Positions 1,787 through 30,528 of a stretch of DNA of 36,876 nucleotides are shown one piece after another. The first letter of the stretch is position 1, and each line of letters starts with the position of its first letter. Location: positions 1 through 36,876 of IMG/VR virus record IMGVR_UViG_3300005329_000019; one strand, given 5' to 3'. The translations under genes were made by a program, and so were the position numbers. The notes below the pieces were generated by a model that searched no databases, was not told the origin of the DNA, and was given only the letters and a program-made list of their open reading frames with translations. Source of the stretch: a virus.

Positions 1787-1787
1787 G

Positions 1788-3860: not shown

Positions 3861-4058
3861 TCACTCCCCGTCGGAGTCCATGTCGGGGACTTTGGCCGGT
3901 GGCTTTCGCTTACGTAGGGCGTGCGCCTGGGCCTTCATTCTGTCCGCGTCCACATACTCCTTGGCCACTGCCTTTGTGGGGCCCTTGCCGCTTGAGGGCT
4001 TACCCCCGTGCGCCACCATTTCCATGAGGTTGTGCTGTTTTTGGCTGACGCTTGGCAT
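3861..4058 (-). CDS. Small basic phage protein
   Basis: 65 residues from ATG 4058, with GGAGG five bases upstream. It starts MPSVSQKQHNLMEMVAHGG, a pattern seen in short proteins encoded before terminases in many podoviruses, and continues with a Lys/Arg-rich centre (AVAKEYVDADRMKAQA, LRKRKPP) and an acidic tail. The role is unknown. Position suggests a packaging or DNA-binding accessory. Confidence 0.7.
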   Translation of the reverse strand: MPSVSQKQHNLMEMVAHGGKPSSGKGPTKAVAKEYVDADRMKAQAHALRKRKPPAKVPDMDSDGE

Positions 4059-5635: not shown

Positions 5636-5793
5636 CTCTCCCCCTCCTCTCCCGCCGGCTGGGGTGGGGCGACACAGGCCGGGCACGTCGGTGGCGGAGC
5701 AAGCTTCGGTGCGCCGTGTATGTACGGTCCGTGCGTTGGGCAGGTAATCAGATACACCGCCATAGTCGGGGCTGTGCTTTTGCGCTTGCTCAC
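5632..5793 (-). CDS. Micro-protein with CxxC/H motif
   Basis: 53 residues beginning GTG 5793, overlapping the upstream stop (GTGA) and the downstream start. It contains ITCPTHGPY and TCPACVAPP, two Cys pairs about 25 residues apart that could bind one zinc. The start could instead be the internal ATG (MAVYLIT). Unknown function. Confidence 0.5.
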   Translation of the reverse strand: MSKRKSTAPTMAVYLITCPTHGPYIHGAPKLAPPPTCPACVAPPQPAGEEGER

Positions 5794-6245: not shown

Positions 6246-6481
6246 GGCGTCCCCTTCACGGCCTTCAAGGCCCATGCGACCAGCTCGAGAAACGGCAAGA
6301 CAAACCACCACCAGGCCTGGAACCTCGAGACTTGCGTTTTACCCAGACGGCCAAAGGCATTTAGGACCACCATCCCGGAGACGAAGTGGCCGCACCATCC
6401 ACACGCCCACCCGTCTCGGTTGACGGCTAGTCGCATGTCCAGGGCGCACGTCGGGCAAGGGAGGTTGAGGCTGTAGGTCAT
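6242..6481 (-). CDS. Small zinc-ribbon protein with membrane segment
   Basis: 79 residues from ATG 6481, overlapping the rusA stop (ATGA). Residues 8-35 hold CPTCALDM and CGWCGHF, a C-x2-C...C-x2-C ribbon. Residues 52-72 (FQAWWWFVLPFLELVAWALK) form one hydrophobic helix, so the protein is probably membrane-attached with the ribbon on one side. A zinc ribbon joined to a membrane anchor in an early gene is unusual; a role in host takeover or superinfection is only a guess. Confidence 0.6.
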   Translation of the reverse strand: MTYSLNLPCPTCALDMRLAVNRDGWACGWCGHFVSGMVVLNAFGRLGKTQVSRFQAWWWFVLPFLELVAWALKAVKGTP

Positions 6482-6831
6482 GGCCGGCCCTCCGGTGCCT
6501 CGCGGATTTCCACCTCCACCCGCGGGTTGTCCTTGTCGTCAAAGCGGTAGGCATGCAGCTCCACCACCTGGGAGTCATCCAGGTAGGCAATGCCTCGGAT
6601 GGAGTCCAAGAGGGCCTTGAGCGCGTTGTCCAGGTCCCCGGTCCGCCGGGGCCGGTAGAAGTGCAGCCACATGGCCACGTGCTTCTCCGTGGGCTTGAGG
6701 CCAGCTGCCCGGGCGGTGAGGGCGCTGCGCTCGCGGTATGCGCGGCCCTCCGCGGAGAGGAGAATGCGGCCCTTCCACGTGCGCCAAATGGAGTTGAGGC
6801 TGGGTGGGTACGGGAGGGTGAGGGCCTTCAA
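6478..6831 (-). CDS. rusA: RusA-type Holliday junction resolvase
   Basis: 117 residues with TTG start at 6831, overlapping the HNH stop (TTGA). RusA homodimers cut four-way junctions in recombining or replicating DNA before packaging. Visible signature: LPYPPSLNSIWR at the N-terminus, then RRTGDLDNALKALLDS with the conserved acidic pair, and GIAYLDDSQVVEL with a further acidic pair. Length matches the family (about 120). It stands among the replication genes, next to an HNH nuclease. Confidence 0.9.
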   Translation of the reverse strand: MKALTLPYPPSLNSIWRTWKGRILLSAEGRAYRERSALTARAAGLKPTEKHVAMWLHFYRPRRTGDLDNALKALLDSIRGIAYLDDSQVVELHAYRFDDKDNPRVEVEIREAPEGRP

Positions 6832-7307
6832 GCGGACACCAGCCTGGGCCGGAGCCCGCGCGTGCCGTGGATGATTTGGGAGACGTAGTTGGGTGTGATG
6901 CCGAATCGACGGGCGATGGCGCGGTTTGTCTCCCCCGCGGCCGACAGCGCTCGAATCTCGGCGAACTGCTTCGCGCCGAGCTTGTACCTGGCGCAGCGGT
7001 GCCCCTTTCGCGACTGGCGCCCCTTGGCCTTCTTGTCCGCCATGTTGTCGGCTTGCGTGCCGGCTCGAAGGTGCATCGGATGAACACACCGCGGCGTGTC
7101 GCATGTGTGCCTAACAACCTCGCCATGGACATGGCCGTACAACAGGAAGTGGGCGACCCGATGGGCGCTGTACGCTCGGCCGCCAATCCTGATTTGGCCA
7201 TAGCCGTCCTTGCGAAGCGTGCCGGTCCATAGCCAACACCCAGACTCAGCCTTCTGAATCTTGCCCCAGAAGCGCTCCACGTCCTTCGGCGATATGCCGG
7301 GAATCAT
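6828..7307 (-). CDS. HNH endonuclease with C-terminal HTH
   Basis: 159 residues from ATG 7307 (ATGA overlap). The N-terminal half follows the HNH_3 pattern: GCWLWTGTLRKDGYG, AHRVAHFLL, then VRHTCDTPRCVHPMHL with the metal and catalytic His residues. The C-terminal third (FAEIRALSAAGETNRAIARR...TPNYVSQI) is a helix-turn-helix, probably for target choice. It is a free-standing homing-type nuclease and a paralogue of the gene at 8375-8695. It sits in-line between coupled genes without breaking them. Confidence 0.85.
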   Translation of the reverse strand: MIPGISPKDVERFWGKIQKAESGCWLWTGTLRKDGYGQIRIGGRAYSAHRVAHFLLYGHVHGEVVRHTCDTPRCVHPMHLRAGTQADNMADKKAKGRQSRKGHRCARYKLGAKQFAEIRALSAAGETNRAIARRFGITPNYVSQIIHGTRGLRPRLVSA

Positions 7308-7561
7308 GCGGCCTCCTCTCGACGAAGGGTGAGGAAGGCGCGCCATTCAGCGGCCGTCGGCGCGCGCCGGATTTCCGCGCCCTGGAGGTTCCACCAATCC
7401 GCGAGACAGCAGTAGCACAGCACGTGGGCGTCCTCTCCATCCCCGAGCTGCGTCAGGGGCGGGTTGTTGCCCGTCTTGGCCCCAGTCACCTGGCAGCCGG
7501 GAATACAGCAGCGGAATTCGCCCTCTGTCGGCCTCTGGTCCTGCTTCTCACGCTCCAACAC
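7304..7561 (-). CDS. Small Cys-rich protein
   Basis: 85 residues beginning at GTG 7561 (or TTG 7558), overlapping the 3' end of the replication gene by 14 bases and the HNH start by four. Cys pairs FRCCIPGC and VLCYCCLADWW suggest zinc binding. The C-terminus (RAPTAAEWRAFLTLRREEA) is helical. Unrecognised family; position suggests a replication accessory. Confidence 0.6.
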   Translation of the reverse strand: MLEREKQDQRPTEGEFRCCIPGCQVTGAKTGNNPPLTQLGDGEDAHVLCYCCLADWWNLQGAEIRRAPTAAEWRAFLTLRREEAA

Positions 7562-8375
7562 GACGCACCTCCTCCTGGGGGACGTACTTGCTCCACTCGG
7601 ACTGGAAGCCATTCCATGGGTGGGGAGGCGAGACGCCTGGGCGCTCCCACCAGGGGTTTTGCCCGTACCGGTAGAAGGCTTCCTTGAGGCGCCCGACGGA
7701 CACCTTCGCCAGGAGGACGGCGCGCCAGAAGTCCCGAAGCTTCTCGTGCTTGGGCCACTTCTCCCCCACAAGCCCAGAGGCAATGCGCCGGGACTGCGCC
7801 CAGCGGAAGAAGTCCTCTCCGTCCCACTCGTCCTCGGGCTTGGTGGGCGGCTCGTAGACAAGGCCTTCCGGCTGCGGCGCGCCGCTATTCTTCTTCAAAG
7901 AAGAAGAATTGGATGTTGGCTGTTGGATGCTGGCTGTAAGAGCCGGTGTCGAGCCGGAGGTGGGTGCCCGGGTTGGTTCCGGCTCTACCTCCGGGTGGGT
8001 ACCGGGTAGACCCGGAGAGTCCTCCGGCTCCCCCTCCCGGTACTGCCTGAGGTTTCCGACGTGCCTTTTTCCGGCCTCCTGCTGCTTCTTGCGGATGCCT
8101 AGCCGTCTCTCCGCCCCCTTCACCCGGAAGTCCGGCCGGGAGGGTGGGGCCTCGAGGAAGCCACAGGCAGTCATGGCCGTGGTTAGCTTCTTCTCGTCCG
8201 CCCCTGGGAAGAAGGCCATGAGGCGCTCCTTGCCCACGTACTCGGTTTTCTGGCGCCAGCAGTCCCGCCACAGCTTGAGGCAGCCAAAGGCAATGTGGGC
8301 CGGCCCAGTCCCCACCAGGGCACCGGCCACCTCGAATTCCTCGAGCGCGTCTAAGTCGACTTGGAGGTAGGGCAT
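7548..8375 (-). CDS. O-like replication initiation protein (winged-helix organiser)
   Basis: 275 residues. ATG 8375 overlaps the HNH stop (TGATG). N-terminal residues 1-100 look like a winged helix found in phage replisome organisers (FEVAGALVGTG, AFGCLKLWRDCW, LTTAMTACGFLEA). Residues 110-175 are a Pro/Ser/Glu-rich linker, and the C-terminal domain (FFRWAQSRRIASGLVGEKW, then NPWWERPG) is a second globular part. This layout resembles lambda O, which binds iterons inside its own gene; an iteron-like array is present here in the linker DNA (7887-8007). No helicase loader or helicase gene is seen, so the host helicase would be recruited. Confidence 0.65.
   Translation of the reverse strand: MPYLQVDLDALEEFEVAGALVGTGPAHIAFGCLKLWRDCWRQKTEYVGKERLMAFFPGADEKKLTTAMTACGFLEAPPSRPDFRVKGAERRLGIRKKQQEAGKRHVGNLRQYREGEPEDSPGLPGTHPEVEPEPTRAPTSGSTPALTASIQQPTSNSSSLKKNSGAPQPEGLVYEPPTKPEDEWDGEDFFRWAQSRRIASGLVGEKWPKHEKLRDFWRAVLLAKVSVGRLKEAFYRYGQNPWWERPGVSPPHPWNGFQSEWSKYVPQEEVRRVGA
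7887..8007. other. Candidate replication origin inside the O-like gene
   Basis: A perfect 10-bp inverted repeat with 3-base loop (ATTCTTCTTC / GAAGAAGAAT, 7887-7909) is followed at once by two abutting 14-bp direct repeats at 7909-7922 and 7923-7936 (TTGGATGYTGGCTG, 13 of 14 identical). Two further related blocks follow at 7959-7973 and 7994-8007 (GGTGGGT then CCGGGT). The first part is clearly AT-richer than the surroundings. The arrangement mirrors origins lying inside lambda-type O genes. It could also be only low-complexity linker coding. Confidence 0.45.
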
Positions 8376-8695
8376 CAGCGAGCCCCCGCCGCCGGCCGCA
8401 TCCACTGGTTTCGACCCCGGCCCTTGGCTTTCATGTCAGCCATGTTCTCGGCATGCGTGCCAAGCCTGAGATGGTCCGGGCGAACACAGGCGGGATTGTC
8501 ACAACGATGCAGAACGCAAAATTCGCGTGGGATTTGTCCAAATTCCAATTCCCAGGCAACGCGATGCGCGCCGCGAACCAAGGCGCCACGACGCTCGGTG
8601 AATCTTCCATAGCCCTCGTAATCCAGGGCCCCGCGCCATGGCCAACATCCGTCGGTCTTCTCGACCTTTGACCAAAATCTCTCTTGGTAAGGCAT
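8375..8695 (-). CDS. HNH homing-type endonuclease
   Basis: 106 residues from ATG 8695 with GGAGGGGAAGG just upstream. HNH_3 features: GCWPWRGALDYEGYGRF, AHRVAWELEFG, CVLHRCDNPACVRPDHLRL with the conserved His/Asn/Cys residues, and GTHAENMADMKAKGRG. It is a paralogue of 6828-7307 but lacks the C-terminal HTH. Likely a free-standing mobile nuclease inserted next to the replication gene. Confidence 0.88.
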   Translation of the reverse strand: MPYQERFWSKVEKTDGCWPWRGALDYEGYGRFTERRGALVRGAHRVAWELEFGQIPREFCVLHRCDNPACVRPDHLRLGTHAENMADMKAKGRGRNQWMRPAAGAR

Positions 8696-8763
8696 GTCCT
8701 TCCCCTCCGGCGGACTGCGCGTGTTGCGTGGGGCCCGGGACTCTCTCGCGCCGGGCCAGGGCG

Positions 8764-9033
8764 TCAGCGCTTGGTGCCTTCCAGGGCGGCGGCGATGCGC
8801 TCCAGGGCCTTCACCTCGGCCTGGGCAATCTCGCTGTGCCTGCGGCGGTACTCCATGACGTCACGCACCTCGTTTTCATAGAGGGCCAGCCGGCGGTCTT
8901 CCTGTCGCAAGCGCTCCGTTTCGGTGGCCTTCCACGCCTCGAATTGCTCTCTCTGGGCCTGGCGCTGCTCTCCCCTCCAGGCCTCCCAGGCTTCGACTGG
9001 AGTTGCCCAAACGGTCGTCTGCTTTTCCTCCAT
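8764..9033 (-). CDS. Coiled-coil small protein
   Basis: 89 residues from ATG 9033; GGAGGG six bases upstream fixes this start. Sequence is Glu/Arg/Gln-rich and helical throughout (EAWRGEQRQAQREQFEAWK...RRHSEIAQAEVKALERIAA). No motif recognised. The 68 bases after it hold a 7-bp GC hairpin (8732-8757) before the HNH gene. Confidence 0.6.
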   Translation of the reverse strand: MEEKQTTVWATPVEAWEAWRGEQRQAQREQFEAWKATETERLRQEDRRLALYENEVRDVMEYRRRHSEIAQAEVKALERIAAALEGTKR

Positions 9034-9064
9034 GTGCTTCCCTCCGGTTGGTGCTGCGTTGAAT

Positions 9065-9202
9065 TCACTTCGAAACTGGGCGGCCCTTGCAGTCGAAGAG
9101 GTGGCCTTCCTTCCAGTGCAACCCATGGACGAAGGCACCCCCAATCCAGAGGCCTCCACAAGCGGGGCAGCGGACGAGAGGCCAGACGCGGCGCTCACTC
9201 AT
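9065..9202 (-). CDS. Micro zinc-finger protein, 45 residues
   Basis: ATG 9202 overlaps the preceding stop (ATGA). Contains RCPACGGLWIGGAFVHG and, 20 residues on, HLFDCKG: a C-x2-C...H...C zinc-knuckle pattern. Too short for most automatic calls. The coupling and the Cys spacing support it. Confidence 0.55.
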   Translation of the reverse strand: MSERRVWPLVRCPACGGLWIGGAFVHGLHWKEGHLFDCKGRPVSK

Positions 9203-9366
9203 TCGCCCCTCCTCCTCTTCCACCTCTTCAGGCAGTGGAAACAGGTGGGCTTCTCCCCACCAGCCACGAAGGTGGCGCCCTTGGCTGGACGGCCGCACCA
9301 GGTGTCCCCAGGGGAGTTGGGGTGGGGGGAGTGGGTGCGGCGGACGTCAGTGGCCCAGGCAGTCAT
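9199..9366 (-). CDS. Micro zinc-finger protein, 55 residues
   Basis: ATG 9366 overlaps the stop of the upstream gene (ATGA) and its own stop overlaps the next ATG. Residues include DTWCGRPAKG and PTCFHCLKRWKRRRGE: one Cys, then C-x2-C followed by a basic tail, which suits nucleic-acid binding. Function unknown. Confidence 0.6.
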   Translation of the reverse strand: MTAWATDVRRTHSPHPNSPGDTWCGRPAKGATFVAGGEKPTCFHCLKRWKRRRGE

Positions 9367-9584
9367 GGGGCACCCCCAGCGCGGGGCTGGAGTTGGGGTG
9401 ACTCCAGCTCAGCCCGGGCCTTGCGCTGGGGCTCGGCGTTGTAGCCGTGGCGCTCGGAGTGGGCGAGGAAGGCCCCGTCCAGCCCCGTGCCCATGGTGAA
9501 GCCGTGCTTCTCAAGGTGGAACTCAGCCTCGCAAAGCAGCTCGTAGGCGTGGGCCAACAGCGCCTTCGCGTCGGGCGCCCTCAA
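9363..9584 (-). CDS. Hypothetical small protein
   Basis: 73 residues, TTG start 9584 overlapping the upstream stop (TTGA). N-terminal helical part (DAKALLAHAYELLCEAEFHLEKHG), then GTGLDGAFLAHSERHGYN, then a Pro/Gln tail. No family recognised. Its place in the coupled chain supports reality. Confidence 0.55.
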   Translation of the reverse strand: MRAPDAKALLAHAYELLCEAEFHLEKHGFTMGTGLDGAFLAHSERHGYNAEPQRKARAELESPQLQPRAGGAP

Positions 9585-10099
9585 GCCTCGTCCTCCTCAT
9601 GGACGGACACCCCCTCGAAGGGGTCCCGTCCGCGGGGAGTGTCATAGGGGTCCAACTGTTCCACGCGCTTGGGCGGGCTGTGCGCCACCTCCGCCAGGGC
9701 CTCCTCGTCCAGGAGGCCAGGAGGGAGGGGGAGGGCCAGGGCGGCGCGGGCCTGCTCATAGGCGCCGTCCAGCGCCTCGGCGTCCTCTCGCTCCAGCCCC
9801 TCGCGAAGGAATTCCCCATACATCTCCTGCGAGGCGAACGCGGACCACAGCCTGACGAGGCCGGCCAGCGCCTCCCGGAGTTGCAGGGCGTAGTCATGCG
9901 CAGCCCCTAGCCGGGAGACGTACTCCGCGTTGCGGTCCATGGCCCGGGCCAGAGAGGCGCGCGACTCGTCCCGCTCCAGCGCTACCCGTCTCACCTTGGA
10001 GATGGTGCGAGCCAACTCCTCATGCAGATGGGCAGCCGACGGGAAGGTGTCCGCGGGCGGCCGGAGGTGGTGGCTGCCGTCCTCAATGGGGCCGCTCAT
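9581..10099 (-). CDS. Hypothetical helical protein, first gene left of attP
   Basis: 172 residues from ATG 10099. Predominantly helical (LHEELARTISKVRRVALERDE, YALQLREALAGLVRLWSAF), with an acidic C-terminus (YDTPRGRDPFEGVSVHEEDEA). No motif recognised. It is the first clear gene of the leftward lytic block after attP, so its promoter must lie in 10100-10296 or come by read-through from the integrase side in the circular genome. Confidence 0.6.
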   Translation of the reverse strand: MSGPIEDGSHHLRPPADTFPSAAHLHEELARTISKVRRVALERDESRASLARAMDRNAEYVSRLGAAHDYALQLREALAGLVRLWSAFASQEMYGEFLREGLEREDAEALDGAYEQARAALALPLPPGLLDEEALAEVAHSPPKRVEQLDPYDTPRGRDPFEGVSVHEEDEA

Positions 10100-10296
10100 C
10101 GAGCCACCCCGGGGCCAACTGCTACACTGCTACACCCGCCGGCAGGAGTGCCGGTTTCGGCCGCCAGCCTTGATTGCGAAAGTGGCTGAATTCCGGTCGA
10201 TTCACCTACGCCAACAGATACGAACCGACGTTCGGAGGGGCCTTCGATTCCCCCCGCCTCCATTCCTCTTTTGTAGACGTAAACTAGCGTTTTCAT
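10096..10296 (-). CDS. Doubtful 66-residue ORF spanning attP
   Basis: ATG 10296 directly follows the integrase stop (TGAATG) and its stop overlaps the ATG at 10099, so it is coupled on both sides. However, its codons differ from neighbours (GTT, CTA, TCA, CAA) and its translation around the tRNA-like core (MEAGGIEGPSE) is the kind of product seen when tRNA 3' ends are read as protein. Integration would cut it. I regard it as more likely non-coding. Confidence 0.25.
   Translation of the reverse strand: MKTLVYVYKRGMEAGGIEGPSERRFVSVGVGESTGIQPLSQSRLAAETGTPAGGCSSVAVGPGVAR
10120..10135 (+). repeat. Putative integrase arm-type sites, left arm
   Basis: Two abutting copies of TGCTACAC. The inverse sequence GTGTAGCA occurs on the other side of the core at 10324-10331, with a one-mismatch copy at 10335-10342. 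Paired inverted short repeats flanking a core are the expected layout of arm-type integrase sites. Confidence 0.55.
10243..10262 (+). other. attP: attP core: copy of a tRNA 3' end
   Basis: TTCGATTCCCCCCGCCTCCA matches tRNA positions 54-73 exactly in layout: T-loop TTCGATT, T-stem 3' half CCCCC, acceptor 3' half CGCCTCC, discriminator A. The bases before it (GGGCC) do not form the T-stem, so only the 3' end is carried, as expected when a phage integrates into a tRNA gene and restores its end. A CGAAC-N4-GTTCG inverted repeat (10221-10234) abuts on the left. The tRNA reads rightwards, opposite to the integrase. The isotype is uncertain; a GGAGGCG acceptor start would suit a serine tRNA if the final A is not part of the match. 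Confidence 0.7.
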
Positions 10297-11478
10297 TCAG
10301 TCATCCCCCTTCGCTTTTTGACGGTGTAGCAGCGGTGAAGCAGAAACCCTGAGACGGATGTTCAGTTTGGCCACCTCCCCACAGAGGGCTGCCCAGGGGA
10401 GGGTGGTGTAGAGGTCCATGACGTCCCCGGACGGGCCGTGGGACACCCAGCGGAGAATCTCCTTGCGGCCCCCATCGGCGAGGCCCAGGGAAATGAAGGT
10501 GCGCCGGGAGTCATGCGTGCGGCGGGCGCGAAGGCCCACGCGCTCGAGGTCGGCGAGAAGTTTGTTTCGCACGTGGTTGGAGGTGCGCTGGCGGCCGCCC
10601 ACGCCCCGGGAGTCAAAGCCGGTGGGGATGACGAGGTCCTCCACCCCGGGCGGCCGTCCCATCATCCGGGCCCAGCCCCCCAGCTTCCAGGAGGCCAGCA
10701 CCTTGGCCAGAACGGGGTGGACGGGCACCTCCCGGGCCACGCCCGTCTTGGGCGCCTTGGACACCCGCCGCTTGGTGTGGAAGCTGGTGTGGACGTGGAG
10801 GCAGCCCAGGGGCTCCCGAGCGGCGTCGTAGTCCCGCCAGCGCCTGTCCGCCAACTCCCCAATGCGGCAGCCGGTGAGGAAGAGGAGGGCGTACAGCGTC
10901 CGCCTGTCCTCCGGTATGCGTGCGTCCGAAATGAGCGCCTCCACCTCTTCCCGGGTGAAGACGGCGGTGGCGCGCCAGGCCGGGTTTTTGTCCTTCTTCC
11001 CGGGCAGCACGCCCTTGGGGAGGACGCAGGGGTTGGAGGGCACCACCTCGTCCACCTGGGCGTCCCGAAACATCTGCCGGAGGAGGAAGTACACGTGGCG
11101 AATGGTGCGCGGGGCCAGCTTCCCCTCTGCCTTGAGGCGCACCACCAAGTCCCGAAGGTGGCGGGGTTTCACCTCCACCATGTCCAGGGCGTCCAAGTCC
11201 CGGGCATGGAGAAGCCGGGAGACCTCATGGTCTACGTCCGCCACCCCGGCCTTGCGGCGCGCGTCCAGCCAACCCAGCTTGTAGCCCCGCACCGTCTTGC
11301 GCTTGGACGGCAGCAGGCCCAAGTCCCGCCGGGCCTTTACTTCGCGCTCCAACTCAACCTTGAGCGCCTGGGCCTTCTCCTTCTCGTGAAGAGGGAGCCC
11401 GGTGGAGCGGCTGTGGCGCTCTCTGTTTTCAAGCCAGGCCAGCCACCAGCGGCCTTTGCGCGGGTATAGAGAGGCCAT
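10297..11478 (-). CDS. int: Tyrosine recombinase (phage integrase)
   Basis: 393 residues from ATG 11478. Catalyses site-specific recombination between attP and the host attachment site. N-terminal residues 1-60 form a basic arm-binding part (SLYPRKGRWWLAWLENRER); 65-150 the SAM-like core-binding domain; 170-375 the catalytic domain with R205 (TGCRIGEL), H322 and R325 (HDSRRTF), H347 (SHG) and the nucleophile Y357 (MDLYTTL). The C-terminal tail is short and basic, and its DNA contains the right-arm repeats. It lies beside attP and is preceded three bases upstream by the excisionase-like gene. Confidence 0.96.
   Translation of the reverse strand: MASLYPRKGRWWLAWLENRERHSRSTGLPLHEKEKAQALKVELEREVKARRDLGLLPSKRKTVRGYKLGWLDARRKAGVADVDHEVSRLLHARDLDALDMVEVKPRHLRDLVVRLKAEGKLAPRTIRHVYFLLRQMFRDAQVDEVVPSNPCVLPKGVLPGKKDKNPAWRATAVFTREEVEALISDARIPEDRRTLYALLFLTGCRIGELADRRWRDYDAAREPLGCLHVHTSFHTKRRVSKAPKTGVAREVPVHPVLAKVLASWKLGGWARMMGRPPGVEDLVIPTGFDSRGVGGRQRTSNHVRNKLLADLERVGLRARRTHDSRRTFISLGLADGGRKEILRWVSHGPSGDVMDLYTTLPWAALCGEVAKLNIRLRVSASPLLHRQKAKGDD
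10324..10342 (-). repeat. Putative integrase arm-type sites, right arm, inside int
   Basis: GTGTAGCA (10324-10331) and GTGAAGCA (10335-10342), 11 bp apart, are inverse copies of the left-arm TGCTACAC pair. They lie in the last codons of the integrase gene, so the binding sites and protein sequence constrain each other. Confidence 0.5.
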
Positions 11479-11481
11479 GCC

Positions 11482-11793
11482 CTACCTGCCCTTTGGGGTG
11501 AGAAGCTGGAGAGCCAACTCCCGCGGGGACTTCTCCGCGGCTGGGCACTTGGGCTTGACGTTGAGCAGCTCGTCCCGGCGCACCCGCACCGCGTGGGCGC
11601 TGCCGTAACGGTTGAGGAGGCCCTCCTCCAGCCAGGCGCGAATGGTGTCGCGGCTGACGTTGGCCAGCGCGGCGGCCTGCTTCACGCTGAGGAGTTCCGC
11701 CTCCACCGCGCGGTAGGGTTTCGCTTCCTCCAGCGCCCGGCGCACCCCACGGGCAACCGCTGCCTCTATGGCTGCTTCCAAGTCAAAGGCCAT
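11482..11793 (-). CDS. HTH DNA-binding protein, excisionase-like
   Basis: 103 residues from ATG 11793, seven bases after the upstream stop; a longer start would overlap that gene. N-terminal helix (DLEAAIEAAVARGVRRAL), then a MerR/excisionase-type HTH (LLSVKQAAALANVSRDTIRAWLEEGLL) and a wing (VRVRRDELLNVKP). Its stop is followed three bases on by the integrase ATG. Could direct excision or control int. Confidence 0.75.
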   Translation of the reverse strand: MAFDLEAAIEAAVARGVRRALEEAKPYRAVEAELLSVKQAAALANVSRDTIRAWLEEGLLNRYGSAHAVRVRRDELLNVKPKCPAAEKSPRELALQLLTPKGR

Positions 11794-11800
11794 AGGCAAC

Positions 11801-12076
11801 TCAGCCCTTCGCGGACTTCTTGGGGGTGGGAGGGGCGACGGCGGGCGGCGGCGTCGGAAGCACAGACCAGTCCCCCGCCGCACAAGTCCGCTCCAGCCAC
11901 GTCACCAACTGGGACACCCGGAAGAAGGTGCGGCCGCCAATTTTCTGGCTGGGCACCTTCTTCTGGCGCGCCCACGCGTAAAGCGTGCCCTTTGTCACGG
12001 GGATTCCCATCGCACCGAGCTGCTTCATTGCTTGGTCAGCGCTCACCACCGGCTCCACCAGAAAGTCGCCCGACAT
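11801..12076 (-). CDS. HTH protein, AlpA/excisionase-like
   Basis: 91 residues. ATG 12076 is chosen because GGGGG lies seven bases upstream; the ATG at 12082 would touch it. HTH of the MerR/AlpA type: AMKQLGAMGIPVTKGTLYAWARQKKVPSQKIGG, then FFRVSQLVTWLERT. The Pro-rich tail ends KKSAKG. Together with the next gene it gives two recombination directionality or regulatory candidates in front of int. Confidence 0.7.
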   Translation of the reverse strand: MSGDFLVEPVVSADQAMKQLGAMGIPVTKGTLYAWARQKKVPSQKIGGRTFFRVSQLVTWLERTCAAGDWSVLPTPPPAVAPPTPKKSAKG

Positions 12077-12082
12077 TGCCAT

Positions 12083-12318
12083 CCCCCAACTTGAACAAAT
12101 GTTCAGCTATTTGACATGCACTCCTGGACATCTGCGCAAAATGGGAATTGTCCGGGAGTTCAACTTTTCACTGTGTACAGCGTCTGCCGCGCGATACTCA
12201 ACAGAAATCTAACTGCAAACTTGACAACTTCCGAGGTGTGTGAACAGGGCGCAACTCGACAGCATGCCAACGCAACTCAACAAACAAATTCGCACAAAGT
12301 GGCCAGGAATCGAGCCAC
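12083..12318. promoter_or_regulatory. AT-richer intergenic region upstream of the xis-int genes
   Basis: No gene is seen here. It holds a palindrome TGAAC-AAAT-GTTCA (12092-12105) next to the HTH gene start, likely an operator. The motif ACTCRACAR occurs three times (12196, 12254, 12275), two of them inside CGCAACTC repeats exactly 21 bp apart (12250, 12271). Two TTGACA boxes read rightwards (12111, 12221) but lack a convincing -10. A leftward promoter for the integration genes is expected here; I cannot place it precisely. Confidence 0.45.
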
Positions 12319-12786
12319 TCAAGGACCGGGCCCGGAGGCTGCCCATTGCTTGGAGAGCGTGGCCTCGAGGCCGGTAGTGCAGGTGCCGCCATCCACCGCG
12401 GCGTCGGACACCACGTCATGGAAGGCGCCCACCACTACAAGCCGCGGGCCGTCCCATGTGACGGTGGCCCGGGCGAGGGTTACCCAAAAGGTGACGCCGT
12501 CATCCTGAATGCGGCCGCAGTCCTTGGAGTCCACCAGGGCGGACGTCCCGTACACCACCGCGGACAGGGGGCTGCAGCCGCCGTTGGTGTCTATGCGGAG
12601 GACGTCTCCCTTTTGAGACACCGTCCAGTCCGCGGCGTAGGACTCGTCAACGGAACTGCCATCGCTGCATGTGCCGCGGACATTGAAGGGGCCATGGTAG
12701 GCGCCGGTGAAGTCCGCCGGTGGGCTGCCGCAGGCGGCGAGGATTACTGCTGCAGCGAGAGCACCCCAGAGGCGGTGACATTGCAG
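12319..12786 (-). CDS. Lipoprotein, second of a tandem related pair
   Basis: 155 residues if started at the CTG at 12786, giving a complete lipoprotein signal (MQCHRLWGALAAAVILAAC, Cys 19). No ATG, GTG or TTG lies in frame near the signal, so the start is unusual or translation is coupled, because the first 43 bases overlap the 3' end of the upstream lipoprotein gene. The mature part starts PPADFTGAYHG and contains CSDGSSV, GGCSPLS and later Cys residues, matching the upstream protein position for position in several blocks. Probably anchored in the cell envelope and expressed in the lysogen. Envelope lipoproteins beside phage control genes often block superinfection; that role is inference. 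Confidence 0.65.
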   Translation of the reverse strand: MQCHRLWGALAAAVILAACGSPPADFTGAYHGPFNVRGTCSDGSSVDESYAADWTVSQKGDVLRIDTNGGCSPLSAVVYGTSALVDSKDCGRIQDDGVTFWVTLARATVTWDGPRLVVVGAFHDVVSDAAVDGGTCTTGLEATLSKQWAASGPGP

Positions 12787-13169
12787 GTGGCTGAGCCGCC
12801 GGCAGAGGTGCCCACCAGCGTCGAGTGCATCACAAGGTCCAGGCTTGAGCCGTTGAGCGTCGCCCTGCCGTCGTTCAGGGTTTCCGCGAACGTCCAGGCC
12901 CCCGAGGCAGTTTGGGGGCAGGACTTTCCCTGAAGTGTCAGGACGCTCCCGGCTGCCATCCATGTCAGCGGACTGCACGCACCAGAAAAGGTGGCTGTCA
13001 CGGCGCTCCCAGCCTGGGTGGCCGCCCACGAACTGGTGGCCGTGGTGCTCACGCTGGAGCCATCCGTGCAAGGGCCCGCGTACGCCAGGGTTCCCGAGTA
13101 CGTTCCAGCGAAGTTGGGGCCGCACGCCACGACCAAGCAGCCCAGCACCACAGACAGCGGCTTCACCAT
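12744..13169 (-). CDS. Lipoprotein, first of a tandem related pair
   Basis: 141 residues from ATG 13169, with GGGGG five bases upstream. Signal MVKPLSVVLGCLVVAC with lipobox VVAC, Cys 16. The mature domain (PNFAGTYSGTL, CTDGSSV, GACSPLT, GKSC, TCNVT) is Ser/Thr/Gly-rich and looks like a small beta-sandwich held by disulphides. It is clearly related to the next gene, so a duplication is likely. Located between the putative repressor and the excisionase-like genes, in the region expected to be on in a lysogen. Confidence 0.8.
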   Translation of the reverse strand: MVKPLSVVLGCLVVACGPNFAGTYSGTLAYAGPCTDGSSVSTTATSSWAATQAGSAVTATFSGACSPLTWMAAGSVLTLQGKSCPQTASGAWTFAETLNDGRATLNGSSLDLVMHSTLVGTSAGGSATCNVTASGVLSLQQ

Positions 13170-13214
13170 ATAGACCCCCGGTTGCGAGATGAACCAAGGA
13201 TAGGTCGGAAGGCG

Positions 13215-13511
13215 CTACTTCCTCTTCTTCTCGGCCGCCATGGCCTCCAAAGCCAGTCGTCCGAGCACCTTCCCTATGGGCTGCTGGGCGATGTTGGCCC
13301 GCTTCTCCACCTCCCACCACTCCTCGCCCATGGTCTCCGCGCAGTCCTTCCCGACGTAAATCATCTTGAGAATCAAGCCCGTACGGTCGGGGGCCGCGTT
13401 CAGGTAGGCCATGACGTCGTCCGGGGCCCGGAAGGACACCATGTCCTTCCCCCCGGGCTTCCTCGTCTTTTTGGGCCCAACGGGCCTCATCCGCTTCGCC
13501 ACCTGCACCAC
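13215..13511 (-). CDS. Small basic DNA-binding candidate, possible repressor
   Basis: 98 residues with GTG at 13511 (or 13508); a perfect AGGAGG at 13517-13522 sets this start. N-terminus is very basic (KRMRPVGPKKTRKPGGK); it is followed by DMVSFRAPDDVMAYLNA and RTGLILKMI, the strand-helix-helix pattern of ribbon-helix-helix regulators; the C-terminus is basic (EAMAAEKKRK). It is the first leftward gene after the divergent control region, the usual site of the immunity repressor. The family call is tentative. Confidence 0.6.
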   Translation of the reverse strand: MVQVAKRMRPVGPKKTRKPGGKDMVSFRAPDDVMAYLNAAPDRTGLILKMIYVGKDCAETMGEEWWEVEKRANIAQQPIGKVLGRLALEAMAAEKKRK

Positions 13512-13573
13512 ATACACCTCCTGCGTAAGCCAGAGCACGACACTCCGTCAATGTTGTGTTCATTGCAAGTCAG

Positions 13574-13602
13574 AGTGTAACTCAGTGGTTCCCGGAAATC
13601 AA
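13574..13602 (-). promoter_or_regulatory. Leftward sigma-70-like promoter
   Basis: On the minus strand, TTGATT (13602-13597), a 17-base spacer and TACACT (13579-13574): four of six matches to consensus in each box and ideal spacing. It would drive the small regulator, the lipoproteins and possibly xis-int. Confidence 0.55.
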
Positions 13603-13607
13603 TGCCT

Positions 13608-13620
13608 GACATCGTATGTC
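13608..13620. promoter_or_regulatory. Operator candidate between divergent promoters
   Basis: Perfect inverted repeat GACAT-CGT-ATGTC lying between the -35 boxes of the leftward and rightward promoters, in a locally AT-rich stretch. A dimeric repressor bound here would touch both promoters. Confidence 0.5.
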
Positions 13621-13624
13621 GCAC

Positions 13625-13654
13625 TTGACTTTGTATTACGATTCTGGTTATTCT
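13625..13654 (+). promoter_or_regulatory. Rightward sigma-70-like promoter
   Basis: TTGACT (13625-13630), 18-base spacer, TATTCT (13649-13654), with a TG upstream of the -10. It would drive the recombination block starting at 13765. The leader of about 105 bases contains GAGAGGCC/GACTCTC, a weak hairpin. Confidence 0.5.
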
Positions 13655-13764: not shown

Positions 13765-14004
13765 ATGTTCATGGCGAATGAAGAGACGCTGAAGGAGATG
13801 GCCCAAGAGGTAGCGCAGGAGTTCCAGGCCATTGAGGTGGAGAGGGCGCAGCTGAGGAAGCGGGTGGCGGAGTTGGAGGCGAAGTTGGCCGAGGTGAAGG
13901 AAGAGGCCGCGGACCGCATGGACGTGGTGGACGGCGCAGACGGTACGCCCAGCCCGGATGCCTGGATGCGCCTCTATACGTCCATTGAGGAGGTGCTTCC
14001 GTGA
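13765..14004 (+). CDS. Small coiled-coil protein, first gene of the rightward block
   Basis: 79 residues from ATG 13765 with AGGGGGA seven bases upstream. Residues 5-48 form a strong heptad coil (LKEMAQEVAQEF, VERAQLRKRVAELEAKLAEV); the C-terminus is acidic. Its stop overlaps the next GTG. No family recognised. First-gene position downstream of the promoter suggests an early regulator or anti-host factor. Confidence 0.7.
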   Translation: MFMANEETLKEMAQEVAQEFQAIEVERAQLRKRVAELEAKLAEVKEEAADRMDVVDGADGTPSPDAWMRLYTSIEEVLP

Positions 14005-14423
14005 GCGCCCCCACCATTCACTGCGTTCACTCCCTAGAAGTCTACCGGGAGGAGGATGAGGCCTTCATGCGTGTCCACACCGTCACCGTGGAGGCGGACG
14101 TGGCTTGGGAGGACGAGGATGGGGCGGAGCCGGACTTCCTCAACCTTGAGGCCTGGTGTCCGTGCGGTGCGTGCGAGCGCTACCCGTTCAAGCTGGAGGA
14201 CTTCACCTCCTTGGAGCGGCAGCTGGCGGAGGACTTGCTGACAGACAAGTACGTCCTGGCGGTGGCGGAGCTGGTGACGTGCGTCTACTGCAATAGGCAG
14301 GTGGCGCTGGAGGATGCGTACCCATCTACCCCGGACGAGGGGCTTATCTGCGACCGTTGCCATGCCCGTGAGGTTGTCCGGGCGCTTCCTGTCGGCCATC
14401 CGTTGAGGGTGGTGCTGCCATGA
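14001..14423 (+). CDS. Zinc-ribbon protein of unknown function
   Basis: 140 residues, GTG start 14001 overlapping the previous stop (GTGA). Acidic N-terminal half, then WCPCGACERY near residue 51 and VTCVYCNRQ...LICDRCHAREV near 93-120, giving three Cys clusters. The second pair has classical C-x2-C...C-x2-C zinc-ribbon spacing. Coupled to the next gene by ATGA. Confidence 0.7.
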   Translation: MSAPTIHCVHSLEVYREEDEAFMRVHTVTVEADVAWEDEDGAEPDFLNLEAWCPCGACERYPFKLEDFTSLERQLAEDLLTDKYVLAVAELVTCVYCNRQVALEDAYPSTPDEGLICDRCHAREVVRALPVGHPLRVVLP

Positions 14424-14749
14424 GCACCAAGCACACCCCAGGGCCTTGGGCCATCGGCTACACCTCGGCTGAGAAGGACCCGTTCGTGGTCACCGCTGAC
14501 GACGGCACCAAGTACCACCGCCGCGTGATGGTGGCCGTGGCCGGTCCGAGCACTGGAGTTGGGGAGTACATGGCCCATGCCAATGCCGCCCTTATAGCCG
14601 CAGCGCCGGAGCTGCTGGAGGCGCTGGAGGAAATCGCCCGAGGCGTGGGGCCATTCTCTATGGACCGCCTGGAGCACGCGACCAACACAATCGAGGCAAT
14701 GAAGGGGTTGGCCCGCGCCGCCATCGCCAAGGCCCGAGGTGAGTCATGA
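14420..14749 (+). CDS. Conserved phage early protein of unknown function
   Basis: 109 residues, ATG 14420 (ATGA overlap). It begins TKHTPGPWAIG and has HANAALIAAAPELLEALEEIA, a combination I recognise from many phage early or recombination regions whose function is unknown. The C-terminus is helical and Ala-rich. Confidence 0.8.
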   Translation: MSTKHTPGPWAIGYTSAEKDPFVVTADDGTKYHRRVMVAVAGPSTGVGEYMAHANAALIAAAPELLEALEEIARGVGPFSMDRLEHATNTIEAMKGLARAAIAKARGES

Positions 14750-14943
14750 ACGACGCCCAAGCCGTCTTTGACGCCCTGGAGAAGGAAAACAAGGAGGACC
14801 TGGACTTGCTGCGCATCGCCGCTTCCATTTCCCCAAACAGCCTGGCCGCCCTCGCCAAGGTGTACCCCGCCTTCCTGGAGTACCTCTCCGAGAGGGCCAA
14901 CCGCAGCGCCCGGGCCCTGGACGTCGCCCGGGGCCTCAAATGA
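14746..14943 (+). CDS. Small helical protein
   Basis: 65 residues, ATG 14746 (ATGA overlap). Acidic helical N-terminus (AVFDALEKENKEDLDLLRI) and an amphipathic C-terminus (YLSERANRSARALDVA). No motif recognised. Immediately precedes the exonuclease. Confidence 0.65.
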   Translation: MNDAQAVFDALEKENKEDLDLLRIAASISPNSLAALAKVYPAFLEYLSERANRSARALDVARGLK

Positions 14944-14952
14944 GTCAGCCCC

Positions 14953-15579
14953 ATGCCTCATTCTCCTCTCATGCGGCGAATTGGCGGCAGTGACATTCCC
15001 AAGCTTCTGGGCGTCTCCAAGTACGGCAACGCCATGGACGTGTACCAGCGCATCGTCCTGGAGTTGGAAGAGGAGTGGAACCCGAGAATGGAGCGCGGTG
15101 CCGCAATGGAGCCGGTATTGCGCGCCCATGCCCAGCGGGTGCTTGGGGTGGAGCTGGAGGAGACGGAGTCAGACGTCCACTCCCACCCGGGCGTGGACTT
15201 TGCCTGGGCCCAGGTGGACGACTTGGCGCGGTGGCAGGGCATACCGGTGGCCGTGGACTACAAGAGCCAAACCGTGTGGCGAAAGGGCTGGGGCGCACCT
15301 GAAACGGACGAGGTGCCAGAGGACATTCGCGCCCAGGTGGCGTGGGAGTTGGCGTGCACGGACAGAGAGGTGGGCCTGTTGGTGGTTGGGTTTGGGGAGG
15401 ACGTGGACGGCCCGGAAATTTTCAACCTGCACACCGTGCAGCCCTACGTCGTCCAGAGGGAGCCGGTGTTTGAGTCGTACTGCTTGCAGGTAGCGCGCGA
15501 GTTTTGGACGCGGCACGTTCTCCCGAGGGTGCCACCCGAAGTCCAACCCATCGGGAAGAAGAAAAGGAAGGCGTCATGA
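14953..15579 (+). CDS. YqaJ/lambda-Exo-type recombination exonuclease
   Basis: 208 residues, ATG 14953. Resects double-strand ends so that the partner protein can anneal strands. Family signs: RIGGSDIPKLLGVSKYG at 9-25, RMERGAAMEPVLRAHA at 45-60 with Glu 53, VDFAWAQVDDLA with the metal-binding Asp near 89, then VDYKS (Asp 102, Lys 104), the D-x-K form of the usual E-x-K, and Q128 in the following helix. Stop overlaps the next ATG, as expected for an exonuclease-annealase pair. Confidence 0.9.
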   Translation: MPHSPLMRRIGGSDIPKLLGVSKYGNAMDVYQRIVLELEEEWNPRMERGAAMEPVLRAHAQRVLGVELEETESDVHSHPGVDFAWAQVDDLARWQGIPVAVDYKSQTVWRKGWGAPETDEVPEDIRAQVAWELACTDREVGLLVVGFGEDVDGPEIFNLHTVQPYVVQREPVFESYCLQVAREFWTRHVLPRVPPEVQPIGKKKRKAS

Positions 15580-16289
15580 GTGAGGCCGCGTTGGCGTTGG
15601 TGGAGCAACCGGGGGAGGCCAAGCCCTCTACCCTCATGAAGCGCGCAACGGACGTTGCCGCCGTCTGTGAGACGGTGGTGGCCAAGCTAGCGCTCGACTT
15701 GAAGGGCGACGGGAAGAAGTACATTCCGGTGGAGGGGTGGGCCACCATTGCCGCCGCCTACGGGTGCGCCCCGTCCATTCGAGAGGTGGTGGAGGAGGAC
15801 AGGGGCATTCGCGCCATTGCCGAGTTGAAGCGCGCGGACGGCACCGTGGTTGCCACGGCCGAGGGCTACTGCGGCCTAGACGAGCCCATGTGGGCCAACC
15901 GGGCGCTGTACGCCCGCCGGGGCATGGCGCAGACGCGGGCCATTTCGCGGGTGTGCCGCACGGCCTTCGCCTTCGTCGTCACCCTCATGAAGGACAAGTA
16001 CGAGACAACCCCGGCCGAGGAAATTCCGCGCGGCAAGGGGGCGGACGTGGTGGACGTCCAGGCGCAGCCCTCGGCGCCCGGCAAGCCACAGCCCGAGCGC
16101 ACCCAGGCAACCCGCGTGCGCTTCGGCAAGTCGAAGGGGAAGCACCTCTGTGACATTGAGGACGACGACTTGCAGTGGCAGTTGTCCGCCGCGCAGAAGT
16201 CTGTGGACGCGAACGACCCGAAGTGGGCAGACGCCAACCGCAAGTGGCTCGCCACCGTCCAGGCTGAGGTTGAGAGGAGGAAGGGGTAA
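15576..16289 (+). CDS. Probable single-strand annealing protein with C-terminal DUF3820-like domain
   Basis: 237 residues; ATG 15576 overlaps the exonuclease stop. Residues 17-155 carry KYIPVEGWATIAAAYGC, strand-rich middle with ATAEGYCG, and RRGMAQTRAISRVCRTAF ending TPAEEIP, a pattern of phage annealing-type proteins that I cannot assign firmly to RecT, Erf or Rad52. A linker rich in Pro/Gln follows, then VRFGKSKGKHLCDIEDDDLQW (180-201), like the small domain often called DUF3820 that also ends some nucleases. The exonuclease neighbour supports a recombination role. Confidence 0.7.
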   Translation: MSEAALALVEQPGEAKPSTLMKRATDVAAVCETVVAKLALDLKGDGKKYIPVEGWATIAAAYGCAPSIREVVEEDRGIRAIAELKRADGTVVATAEGYCGLDEPMWANRALYARRGMAQTRAISRVCRTAFAFVVTLMKDKYETTPAEEIPRGKGADVVDVQAQPSAPGKPQPERTQATRVRFGKSKGKHLCDIEDDDLQWQLSAAQKSVDANDPKWADANRKWLATVQAEVERRKG

Positions 16290-16627
16290 TGGACTCACTG
16301 AAGGCCTTCGCTATGGGCGAGGCAAACCGGGACAAGCCGCTCAAGGTTTTCGACTGGGACAGGGCCGCCCGGCTCATTCGCGAGCGCGGAGCACAAGAGG
16401 CCAGCGCTGGCCTCTCTGGCGACTGGGAGTGGACGGGCGGGGAAATTCTCACAGACGGGAAGCCCAACCACGAGGCGTACACCTACCTGGCCAGCACATG
16501 GGCAACCCCAATGCTGGAGATTGACGGCCACCGCGTGGAGTGCTTCCGCATGGAGTCGGAGGTGCCGGACTGGGGCTCTGGCACCAAGTGGCCACCTTCC
16601 GCGCTCGCCATTCTGGAGGCCCCTTGA
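16289..16627 (+). CDS. Hypothetical protein of the recombination block
   Basis: 112 residues, ATG 16289 sharing one base with the previous stop. Contains VFDWDRAARLIRERGAQEAS, a W-rich stretch GDWEWTGGEIL and CFRMESEVPDWG. It resembles small phage proteins of unknown function that modify or regulate nucleases; no firm assignment. Confidence 0.65.
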   Translation: MDSLKAFAMGEANRDKPLKVFDWDRAARLIRERGAQEASAGLSGDWEWTGGEILTDGKPNHEAYTYLASTWATPMLEIDGHRVECFRMESEVPDWGSGTKWPPSALAILEAP

Positions 16628-16836
16628 GCCGCTACACCCACAAAGGCCCCTCGTCCCCACAGCGGGACCCACCCATGGCCCCAGAAGAGAGGGCCCGCAT
16701 GGTGCGCCGGGCCCTCAGCGCCTACTTGGACAATGAGGTTTCGCTGACTGAGTGGTGTCGCCGGTTCCCTGGCCACATCCGTAGTGAGGCCATAGCCAAC
16801 ATTCCGCCCAGCATGAGGCGGCGTGGTACGACGTAG
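16624..16836 (+). CDS. Small basic protein before a terminator
   Basis: 70 residues with TTG 16624 overlapping the previous stop (TTGA); an internal ATG at 16675 is a possible alternative. Basic and helical (PEERARMVRRALSAYLDNEV, WCRRFPGHIRSEAI). It ends six bases before a strong hairpin. Confidence 0.55.
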   Translation: MSRYTHKGPSSPQRDPPMAPEERARMVRRALSAYLDNEVSLTEWCRRFPGHIRSEAIANIPPSMRRRGTT

Positions 16837-16841
16837 CAGCA

Positions 16842-16897
16842 CGGAGCCCCGGGCGAGGCGCAACCCCTCCCTCCTTGCCCGAGGCTCCGCATTTTTC
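16842..16897 (+). terminator. Intrinsic terminator inside the rightward block
   Basis: Stem arms 16842-16857 (CGGAGCCCCGGGCGAG) and 16874-16889 pair over about 15 positions with one mismatch and one G-T pair, followed by ATTTTTCT. It separates the recombination genes from the distal small genes, probably as a partial terminator because no clear new promoter is seen. Confidence 0.75.
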
Positions 16898-16910
16898 TAG
16901 GGGGTGTGAC

Positions 16911-17138
16911 ATGGCACGCATGGACGAGAAGACGTGGAAGGAGGCCGTTGACGACGCGCACGCCCGCCCGTGGTGGGCAGACGCGCTGATTGCGGAGGCC
17001 CGCCGCGCTCGCGAGTCCGAGGCGAGGTTGGCGAAGGTGCTGGCCGAGCACTTGGATTGGTACGACGGGGGACGTGTGGACGAGGGCAAGCTGATTGACG
17101 AGACCCGCGCCGCCCTCACGGCCCTGGAGGACACGTGA
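16911..17138 (+). CDS. Small helical protein
   Basis: 75 residues, ATG 16911 chosen because AGGGGG lies six bases upstream; the longer form would start inside the terminator. Contains RPWWADALIAEARRARESEARLAKVL, a helical Arg/Glu-rich stretch. Coupled to the next gene by GTGA. Confidence 0.6.
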   Translation: MARMDEKTWKEAVDDAHARPWWADALIAEARRARESEARLAKVLAEHLDWYDGGRVDEGKLIDETRAALTALEDT

Positions 17139-17308
17139 AGGCCAGCCCCAACCTTGAGCCCCTGGAGACACTGACGGCCAACGCCGTCAACCTCGTCCAC
17201 GCCTTGGTGCGCGAGGTGAAGAAGCTAAAGGCGGAGGTGGAGAAGCAGCGCCTCTTGGTTGAAGGTGCCCAGAGGGTTATGCGGGACCGCGACATGGAGG
17301 ACACGTGA
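17135..17308 (+). CDS. Coiled-coil micro-protein, 57 residues
   Basis: GTG 17135 overlaps the previous stop and its TGA overlaps the next GTG. The product is a nearly continuous coil (LETLTANAVNLVHALVREV, KLKAEVEKQRLLVEGAQRV). Both neighbours carry similar heptad stretches. Confidence 0.55.
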   Translation: MKASPNLEPLETLTANAVNLVHALVREVKKLKAEVEKQRLLVEGAQRVMRDRDMEDT

Positions 17309-17697
17309 CGGACGCCGAGCTGGAAACCATCGAGAAGGCCTGCGGGGAGGCGACTCTTGAAGGGGACTGCCAGTGTCCCGAGCGGGGGTATTTCTGGGTC
17401 CGTCATGAGCCGGGGTGTGTGCAGGCCCGCAGGACTGCGGCACAAGACGAGATTGACGAGAACGCTTTCGAGTGGGTGCCCGCCCTCGTGGCGGAGGTGA
17501 GGAGGTTGCGCGCGGAGTCGCTCAAGTGGCAGGGCGAGTGGTTCGCCCTCTCGAAGAGAGAGGAACGCTGGGAGAACGTCCGAGAGGACACCCTGGAGGA
17601 GGCGGCGAAGGCCGTCGAAGCAATTCCTGGCCAAGATGAGGGGCCGTACTTCACGCTAGCTGCCGCCGCCATCAGGGACCTGAAGGAGAAGCCGTGA
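17305..17697 (+). CDS. Hypothetical protein with one Cys/His cluster
   Basis: 130 residues, GTG 17305 (GTGA overlap). N-terminal third has CGEATLEGDCQCPERGYFWVRH and GCVQARR, four Cys and a His that might bind a metal. The rest is helical (VPALVAEVRRLRAESLKWQ), ending KEKP. A similar layout occurs in early proteins of unknown function in other phages. Confidence 0.6.
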   Translation: MTDAELETIEKACGEATLEGDCQCPERGYFWVRHEPGCVQARRTAAQDEIDENAFEWVPALVAEVRRLRAESLKWQGEWFALSKREERWENVREDTLEEAAKAVEAIPGQDEGPYFTLAAAAIRDLKEKP

Positions 17698-17792
17698 GGC
17701 TGGTGCTGGTGTTGCTTGGCACCGGCCTCTTCCTCAATCTGGCGGCCCTGGCGGAGTGGGCATGGGCGGCAGCGCTTCGGGCCCTCAAGTAG
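17694..17792 (+). CDS. Membrane micro-protein, 32 residues
   Basis: GTG 17694 overlaps the previous stop. The sequence is one hydrophobic helix (MRLVLVLLGTGLFLNLAALA then EWAWAAALRALK), so a single membrane-spanning peptide. Support is only the coupling and the composition. Confidence 0.4.
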   Translation: MRLVLVLLGTGLFLNLAALAEWAWAAALRALK

Positions 17793-17823
17793 GCGTGGCC
17801 CCCCCACGTGGTAGCCTGCCGGG

Positions 17824-18045
17824 GTGGACGAGCTTGCCGACATGCGGCAGCGCCTCGAGGCCATGCGCAGGCGCCTCCTCTACCAGGAGCGCGAGCTGGC
17901 CACGTGGAAGACGCGCGCCCTCTTCCCCCGCCTCGAAGGGGAGGAGAGAGTCCGCCAGGAGGAGAGGCTGGCCGTGGCTGAAACCTTGCGCCACGCGGCG
18001 GACATTGAGAGGCGCAGGCCCAGCCTGGCCGGGTACCTCCGGTAG
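17824..18045 (+). CDS. Small coiled-coil protein
   Basis: 73 residues from GTG 17824. Arg/Glu-rich coil (MRQRLEAMRRRLLYQEREL, RVRQEERLAVAETLRHAAD). Unknown function. The spacer from the previous gene is 31 bases. Confidence 0.55.
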   Translation: MDELADMRQRLEAMRRRLLYQERELATWKTRALFPRLEGEERVRQEERLAVAETLRHAADIERRRPSLAGYLR

Positions 18046-18074
18046 CTGGCCATGGACGTTGAAAGGGGTAGCCC

Positions 18075-18188
18075 GTGCGGGTCCTGAGGGTGGCCATCAT
18101 GCTCGCGTTCTTTGCCCTGGGCGTATTCCAGCTCTACCGGTTTCACGTGGAGGCGATGATGCGCTTCATGGGAGACGCGGGGCACTAG
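18075..18188 (+). CDS. Membrane micro-protein, 37 residues
   Basis: GTG 18075 with AAAGGGGT upstream. One hydrophobic helix (RVLRVAIMLAFFALGVFQLY) followed by an amphipathic tail (FHVEAMMRFMGDAGH). It ends convergently, overlapping the HNH gene stop by four bases. Confidence 0.4.
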   Translation: MRVLRVAIMLAFFALGVFQLYRFHVEAMMRFMGDAGH

Positions 18189-18571
18189 CCAGCCTGGCGG
18201 ATGGGCTCCCTCTCGTCCCGGGCCATCTGGGCAGCCTGCTTGGGCGTCAGGTGCCCGGCACGCAGGAGGCGGCAGATTTGCCTGACGCTCGGGACGTATT
18301 GCCTGAAGCTCGAGCCATGGCCATAGGCGAGATGACAGCCGCGCCAGGCGCAGAGAGTGAGGAGGTTGGTGGGGTCCAGCTCCCGGCTTGGGTCATGCTC
18401 AAAAGCTACGACATGGTGGACGTTGAGCAGCCTTGCGCCCCCGCAGGCCTGGCAGACGGGTTGCTCAAGTAGCCAGCGCTTCTCCAGCGCCCTCCACTGG
18501 GGGCTGCGCGTTGCGGCGGTAGCCCAGGCGTGCGCAACATGCCGGGCGAGGTTGACAGCCTGGGCAAGCAT
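18185..18571 (-). CDS. HNH endonuclease
   Basis: 128 residues from ATG 18571; an upstream part of the frame overlaps the peptidase gene and is rejected. HNH core: SPQWRALEKRWLLEQPVCQACGG, LLNVHHVVAFEHDP, DPTNLLTLCAWRGCHLAYGHG, giving the Cys pairs and the two catalytic His positions. Phage HNH proteins of this type assist terminase cutting or act as mobile nucleases. Here the gene lies at the far end of the late block rather than beside terL. C-terminus is helical and basic. Confidence 0.85.
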   Translation of the reverse strand: MLAQAVNLARHVAHAWATAATRSPQWRALEKRWLLEQPVCQACGGARLLNVHHVVAFEHDPSRELDPTNLLTLCAWRGCHLAYGHGSSFRQYVPSVRQICRLLRAGHLTPKQAAQMARDEREPIRQAG

Positions 18572-20260: not shown

Positions 20261-20275
20261 GGGTGCTTCTCCTTG

Positions 20276-20770: not shown

Positions 20771-20773
20771 GGC

Positions 20774-20995: not shown

Positions 20996-21007
20996 GGAGG
21001 CGGGCCC

Positions 21008-21589: not shown

Positions 21590-21604
21590 GGGCAGCCTCC
21601 ATGT

Positions 21605-21659: not shown

Positions 21660-21680
21660 CGCTTGCTGAAAACCGTTCCT

Positions 21681-23453: not shown

Positions 23454-23462
23454 GGCTTCACC

Positions 23463-27056: not shown

Positions 27057-27060
27057 GGCT

Positions 27061-28359: not shown

Positions 28360-28360
28360 T

Positions 28361-30525: not shown

Positions 30526-30528
30526 GCG

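Follow-up and report, generated by a model that had tools for sequence, protein, structure and literature searches.

The stretch of DNA analysed here (36,876 nucleotides; hereafter the window) carries, in leftward order, a 107-aa gene, two lipoprotein genes, two HTH/excisionase-like genes, the integrase gene int, the phage attachment site attP and orf172, followed by packaging and virion genes (Table 1). An identical 50-bp sequence stands at both ends, so the record maps as a circle of about 36.8 kb. The order of the int, terminase, portal, capsid, tail and amidase genes is collinear with that of Myxococcus phage Mx8, at about 31–54% identity, and homologous int, terminase, portal, capsid and tail genes lie on one strand, as in Mx8-type (Myxoctovirus-like) phages. 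Judged by gene content and order, the window is the circular genome of a temperate, Mx8-like podophage of the myxobacterial Mx8/Mx9 type. A papain-family cysteine protease gene lies at the end of the virion and lysis block (18663–19487), close to the VanY peptidase gene.

No phage record matched the region from 8 to 20 kb at the DNA level, and single-protein pattern searches of viral contigs returned no close relatives of int or of the terminase large subunit (TerL). Relatives of the major capsid protein (MCP) were found in viral contigs, mostly in records without an integrase. Searches via TerL or MCP for integrated Mx8-like prophages in 361–379 Myxococcota genomes yielded a single, distant TerL match. 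The relatives of the integrase belong to elements whose fetched stretches showed no Mx8-like virion genes.

Table 1. Genes and sites of the window, with the positions of their ends and their strand.
Feature	Position	Strand	Remarks
Portal protein	1–1801		runs on over the circle junction from 36579; minus strand
Terminase large subunit (TerL)	2161–3573	-	52% identical to Mx8
RusA Holliday-junction resolvase	6478–6831	-	PF05866, 6.1e-19
285-aa protein	7548–8405	-	in the position of a replication initiator; no family-model match
HNH endonuclease	8375–8695	-	PF13392, 1.8e-17; atypical composition
Short genes, mostly overlapping	8764–9584	-	zinc ribbons, 89-aa protein; part of the leftward series
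orf172	9581–10099	-	first clear gene past attP; codon score +47
66-codon open frame	10096–10296	-	in the int frame, past the int TGA; crosses the core; 4-bp ATGA overlap with next gene
Tandem integrase arm-type sites (two)	10119–10136	-	GTGTAGCAG repeats, left of the core
attP core, 20 bp	10243–10262	+	identical to 3' end of tmRNA gene (tmRNA sense is the + strand)
int, tyrosine integrase, 393 aa	10297–11478	-	phrog_1, phage-integrase family; 42% identical to Mx8 Int
Tandem arm-type sites (two)	10323–10343	+	right of the core, in opposite orientation
HTH/excisionase-like gene before int	11482–11793	-	matches Mx8 uoi
HTH/excisionase-like gene	11801–12082	-	HTH_17, phrog_66
AT-rich regulatory gap, 236 bp	12083–12318	-	49% GC, lowest 0.1% of genome windows
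SOS-box-like palindrome	12090–12106	-	CTGAACATTTGTTCAAG; 7 bp ahead of the first HTH gene
Three operator-like repeats	12192–12282	-	TGTTGAGTTGCG at 12192, 12250 and 12271
Two lipoprotein genes	12319–13169	-	lipobox in translation; one resembles Mx8 p58
107-aa gene	13215–13538	-	in the position of Mx8 imm
Leftward promoter candidate	13602–13574	-	TTGATT-17-TACACT, 8/12
Rightward promoter candidate	13625–13654	+	TTGACT-18-TATTCT, 9/12
Early block, rightward	13765–18472	+	YqaJ exonuclease 14971–15579; 15576–16289, product resembling an annealing protein
Virion and lysis block	18663–36364	-	MCP 33018–33983, amidase 28765–30525, tail fibres, VanY peptidase

The leftward gene chain was drawn with a codon model whose training set was the genes of Mx8; the HNH gene was added to it, as were two zinc-ribbon genes recognised from their translations. 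It runs from 12082 to 2161 with hardly a gap. The gap that holds attP (10100–10296, 197 bp) is the largest, and the next is 5636–5789; the latter and two further gaps in the lytic block (33984–34186 and 36365–36578) could hold promoters. The order of the series is HTH, HTH, int, attP, orf172, small genes, HNH, 285-aa gene, RusA, terminase, portal and then the virion and lysis genes as far as 18663. As originally predicted, int and the HTH genes point leftward at attP (10297–12082, minus strand). Replication, terminase and virion genes had been expected to continue leftward beyond it; the terminase, portal and virion genes do so, and replication is represented by RusA, the gene at 7548–8405 being without a family match. 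No homologue of orf172 was found in phages. The leftward series contains two genes for homing-type HNH endonucleases (the one in Table 1 and another at 6828–7307), and in Mx8 and Mx9 HNH genes likewise follow soon after int.

The 20-bp core of attP occurs once in the window, and the same 20-mer terminates intact tmRNA genes in two other genomes (G111 and G150). Relatives of the integrase adjoin tmRNA or tRNA genes, and the core was present in 78 stretches of viral contigs. Paired 10-bp arm-type sites, GGTGTAGCAG, lie on both sides of the core, and four of the eight arm-type matches in the window fall within a stretch of at most 225 bp around it. The single copy, the identity with a tmRNA 3' end and the flanking paired arm sites make the predicted attP a sound assignment. 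The surrounding gap is moderately AT-rich (59% GC, 5th percentile), with a perfect palindrome, GAACCGACGTTC, at 10222–10233, 9 bp left of the core. Sites of the form GAACN4GTTC number two in the window against 0.23 expected; this palindrome is one, and the other lies in the gap ahead of the HTH and int genes. Another genome (G010:C145) carries this 20-bp tmRNA end twice, 7.4 kb apart (3880–3899 and 11287–11306), in a stretch that contains no intact tmRNA; the two copies may mark a small island or satellite that uses this site as well.

The int gene ends at an in-frame TGA (10297–10299), 12 codons short of the near edge of the core at 10262. The alignment with Mx8 Int extends beyond this TGA into the 66-codon frame, by a short and weak extension. 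The frame is not coding-like (codon score -12.5) and is probably the cut-off tail of int. A role as a translated link between int and orf172, by way of TGAATG and ATGA junctions, was rejected as unproven, as its codon usage is not coding-like. Of 19 relatives with an adjacent tRNA or tmRNA gene, 18 had an int frame without a stop between the catalytic domain and the far side of the core, where shuffled sequences gave an expectation of 4.9; none of 200,000 draws based on the shuffle probabilities gave so high a count. Reading through the core is therefore a feature of this integrase group. By this comparison the window is an exception within the group, its int tail cut off by a TGA that could be a sequencing error.

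On the other side of int, a leftward promoter candidate had been predicted at 13.6 kb, which is probably not the promoter that drives int. The only 9/12 site there lies on the + strand and reads rightward, and the leftward candidate is weaker, of a quality matched by 32 minus-strand sites in the window. A promoter for int is likelier in the gap at 12083–12318, because it is the AT-richest gap and holds the TGTTGAGTTGCG repeats and the SOS-like box CTGAACATTTGTTCAAG; its -35/-10 matches are only weak. The box has one mismatch to CTRHAMRYBYGTTCAGS, with 0.09 such sites expected in the window, but this consensus is that of M. xanthus and may not be the host's. No SOS-like box was found ahead of int in relatives or in Mx8. 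Upstream of the gap, the 107-aa gene shows no similarity to Mx8 Imm at E 0.01, and no sequence-level homologue of Mx8 imm was found. The tandem lipoprotein genes, which may have lysogenic conversion or exclusion functions, lie between this putative regulator gene and the int genes; p58 is located elsewhere in Mx8.

A consensus scan of little power detected no leftward sigma70-like -35/-10 pair of at least 8/12 in 8000–12199. Myxobacterial promoters often fit the consensus poorly, and an empty scan of 10100–10242 therefore says little. The original prediction also held that no intrinsic terminator separates int from 10099, and the scans agree with it. Terminator-like sites were at chance level (15, against 15.1 in shuffled sequences), the only one near attP is a weak 5-bp hairpin at 10234–10221, and RNA of 10100–10300 folds no better than shuffled sequence. 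A terminator scan of little power gave no convincing leftward site from int to 8 kb.

Comparison of gene maps indicates that the layout of int, attP and lytic genes is already present in the known phages Mx8 and Mx9, which share with the window the order repressor (a putative one in the window), int, attP, replication, terminase and virion genes on one strand. Both have a collinear genome with related capsid, portal and terminase genes; Mx8 also has a related int and, between this gene and its core, a similar tandem pair of arm-type sites (GTGACAGCGG, at 6370 and 6381). The window differs in size (36.8 kb, versus 50–53 kb in Mx8 and Mx9), in its attP, which matches the 3' end of a tmRNA gene rather than a tRNA gene, and in its int, which stops short of the core, whereas the coding sequence of Mx8 int contains attP. 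In Mx9, a tRNA-like stretch lies within int. Hence, in both phages the int mRNA must cross the attachment region. The next gene follows 47 bp after int in Mx8 and overlaps it by 4 bp in Mx9. The integrases of Mx8 and Mx9 are dissimilar, and the DNA shared downstream starts only about 40 bp ahead of the first lytic gene, which makes a conserved promoter just past attP unlikely. A low-GC gap precedes the int operon in all three phages; in Mx8 (ahead of uoi-int) and in Mx9 (ahead of int) it ranks among the lowest in GC of the genome. Mx8 also carries, at 6436–6407, a strong intrinsic terminator (13-bp stem and T tract) that is antisense to the int tail and directly adjoins the attP core. Once integrated, it would stop transcription of the host tRNA gene, as a replacement terminator supplied by the phage.

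The excisionase-integrase genes stand in one leftward row with the lytic genes, interrupted by attP, and we consider it reasonably probable (about 0.6) that this row is read through in the circle and that integration breaks the read-through. Transcription through attP in the circle is likely in view of the gene order, the lack of other large gaps and the comparison with Mx8 and Mx9. In the circle, RNA would start mainly in the AT-rich gap at 12083–12318, possibly under SOS or repressor control, and would then pass the HTH genes, int and attP to reach orf172 and the replication and packaging genes. Integration at the host tmRNA gene necessarily leaves int and the lytic block at opposite ends of the prophage, so that the path from int to the lytic genes exists only after excision. 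The physical separation of these two parts by integration can be read straight off the map, and this part of the original prediction stands; the proposed off-switch is a hypothetical function of that separation. The rightward early block at 13765–18.5 kb has its own promoter side and is not cut off by integration. The cut may add to the silence of the lysogen, where it would most likely be secondary to control by a repressor. A role in prophage silence is possible, but integration is unlikely to be the main lytic off-switch.

Tn916 already offers a case of expression confined to the circle: genes needed after excision lie across the attachment site from their promoter and are read through that site, and the break there can be the main control (PMC11658703). 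Tn916 belongs to a family of conjugative elements (ICEs), whereas the window is a phage. Tn916 has an insulating terminator, T1, and the antiterminator canT, neither of which was seen in the window; no strong intrinsic terminator lies near attP, and none was found that would insulate the severed block. The original prediction had drawn its parallel from mycobacteriophages. In BPs, as in the proposal, integration itself shifts the expression of lysis-lysogeny genes; attP lies within the repressor gene and immunity depends on integration (PMC4557955). The parallel is nevertheless a poor one, since in BPs the protein is altered, whereas attP of the window lies after int, between int and orf172, and would alter transcription. 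Tn916 is the closer precedent.

The proposed reading has to be weighed against ordinary repressor control, in which the lytic block has its own promoter or promoters, in 10100–10242 or further in, and the position of attP is without regulatory role, inherited from an Mx8-type attP within int. We regard this as a credible explanation, though a less probable one. Mx8 has a dedicated immunity gene, imm (PMC6070905), and the window has the 107-aa gene in the same place; three operator-like repeats precede the HTH-int genes, and the attP gap is somewhat AT-rich with a palindrome beside the core. Against it, the low-power scan found no promoter-like site in 10100–10242, the gene following int in Mx9 overlaps int, and at the expected place of such a promoter Mx8 and Mx9 have no DNA in common. 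It is very unlikely, on the other hand, that the position of attP serves to alter the tail of Int on integration rather than lytic transcription. According to a review, our source for Mx8 biology, attP lies within int in that phage and integration alters the C-terminus of Int (PMC6070905), and the int frame crosses the core in 18 of the 19 relatives beside a tRNA or tmRNA gene. However, int of the window ends ahead of the core and the frame beyond is not coding-like, so that the integrase would be the same before and after integration. For this phage the TGA refutes tail alteration, unless the stop codon arose by a sequencing error or ribosomes read past it.

Two stronger versions of the switch were also considered. 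In a switch of the Tn916 kind proper, loss of the only promoter would be the main lytic off-switch, and SOS relief at the int promoter would trigger both excision and lytic expression. The gene layout, the SOS-like box so close to the first HTH gene and the precedent itself (PMC11658703) speak for this version, but it is improbable: the box is absent in relatives and was scored with a consensus that may not be that of the host LexA, the rightward recombination genes retain their promoter side, and no insulating terminator was seen at the lytic end. A circuit breaker common to the Mx8 type, in which the lytic block would lie promoterless at a prophage end and depend, once excised, wholly on the xis-int promoter, with excision and lytic expression as one event, likewise seems unlikely.

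If a tailed phage could read its lytic genes solely across the joined attachment site, DNA topology would share with the repressor the task of maintaining lysogeny, much as in Tn916. Mx8 and Mx9 have this layout too and grow on laboratory Myxococcus xanthus, which makes the idea directly testable.
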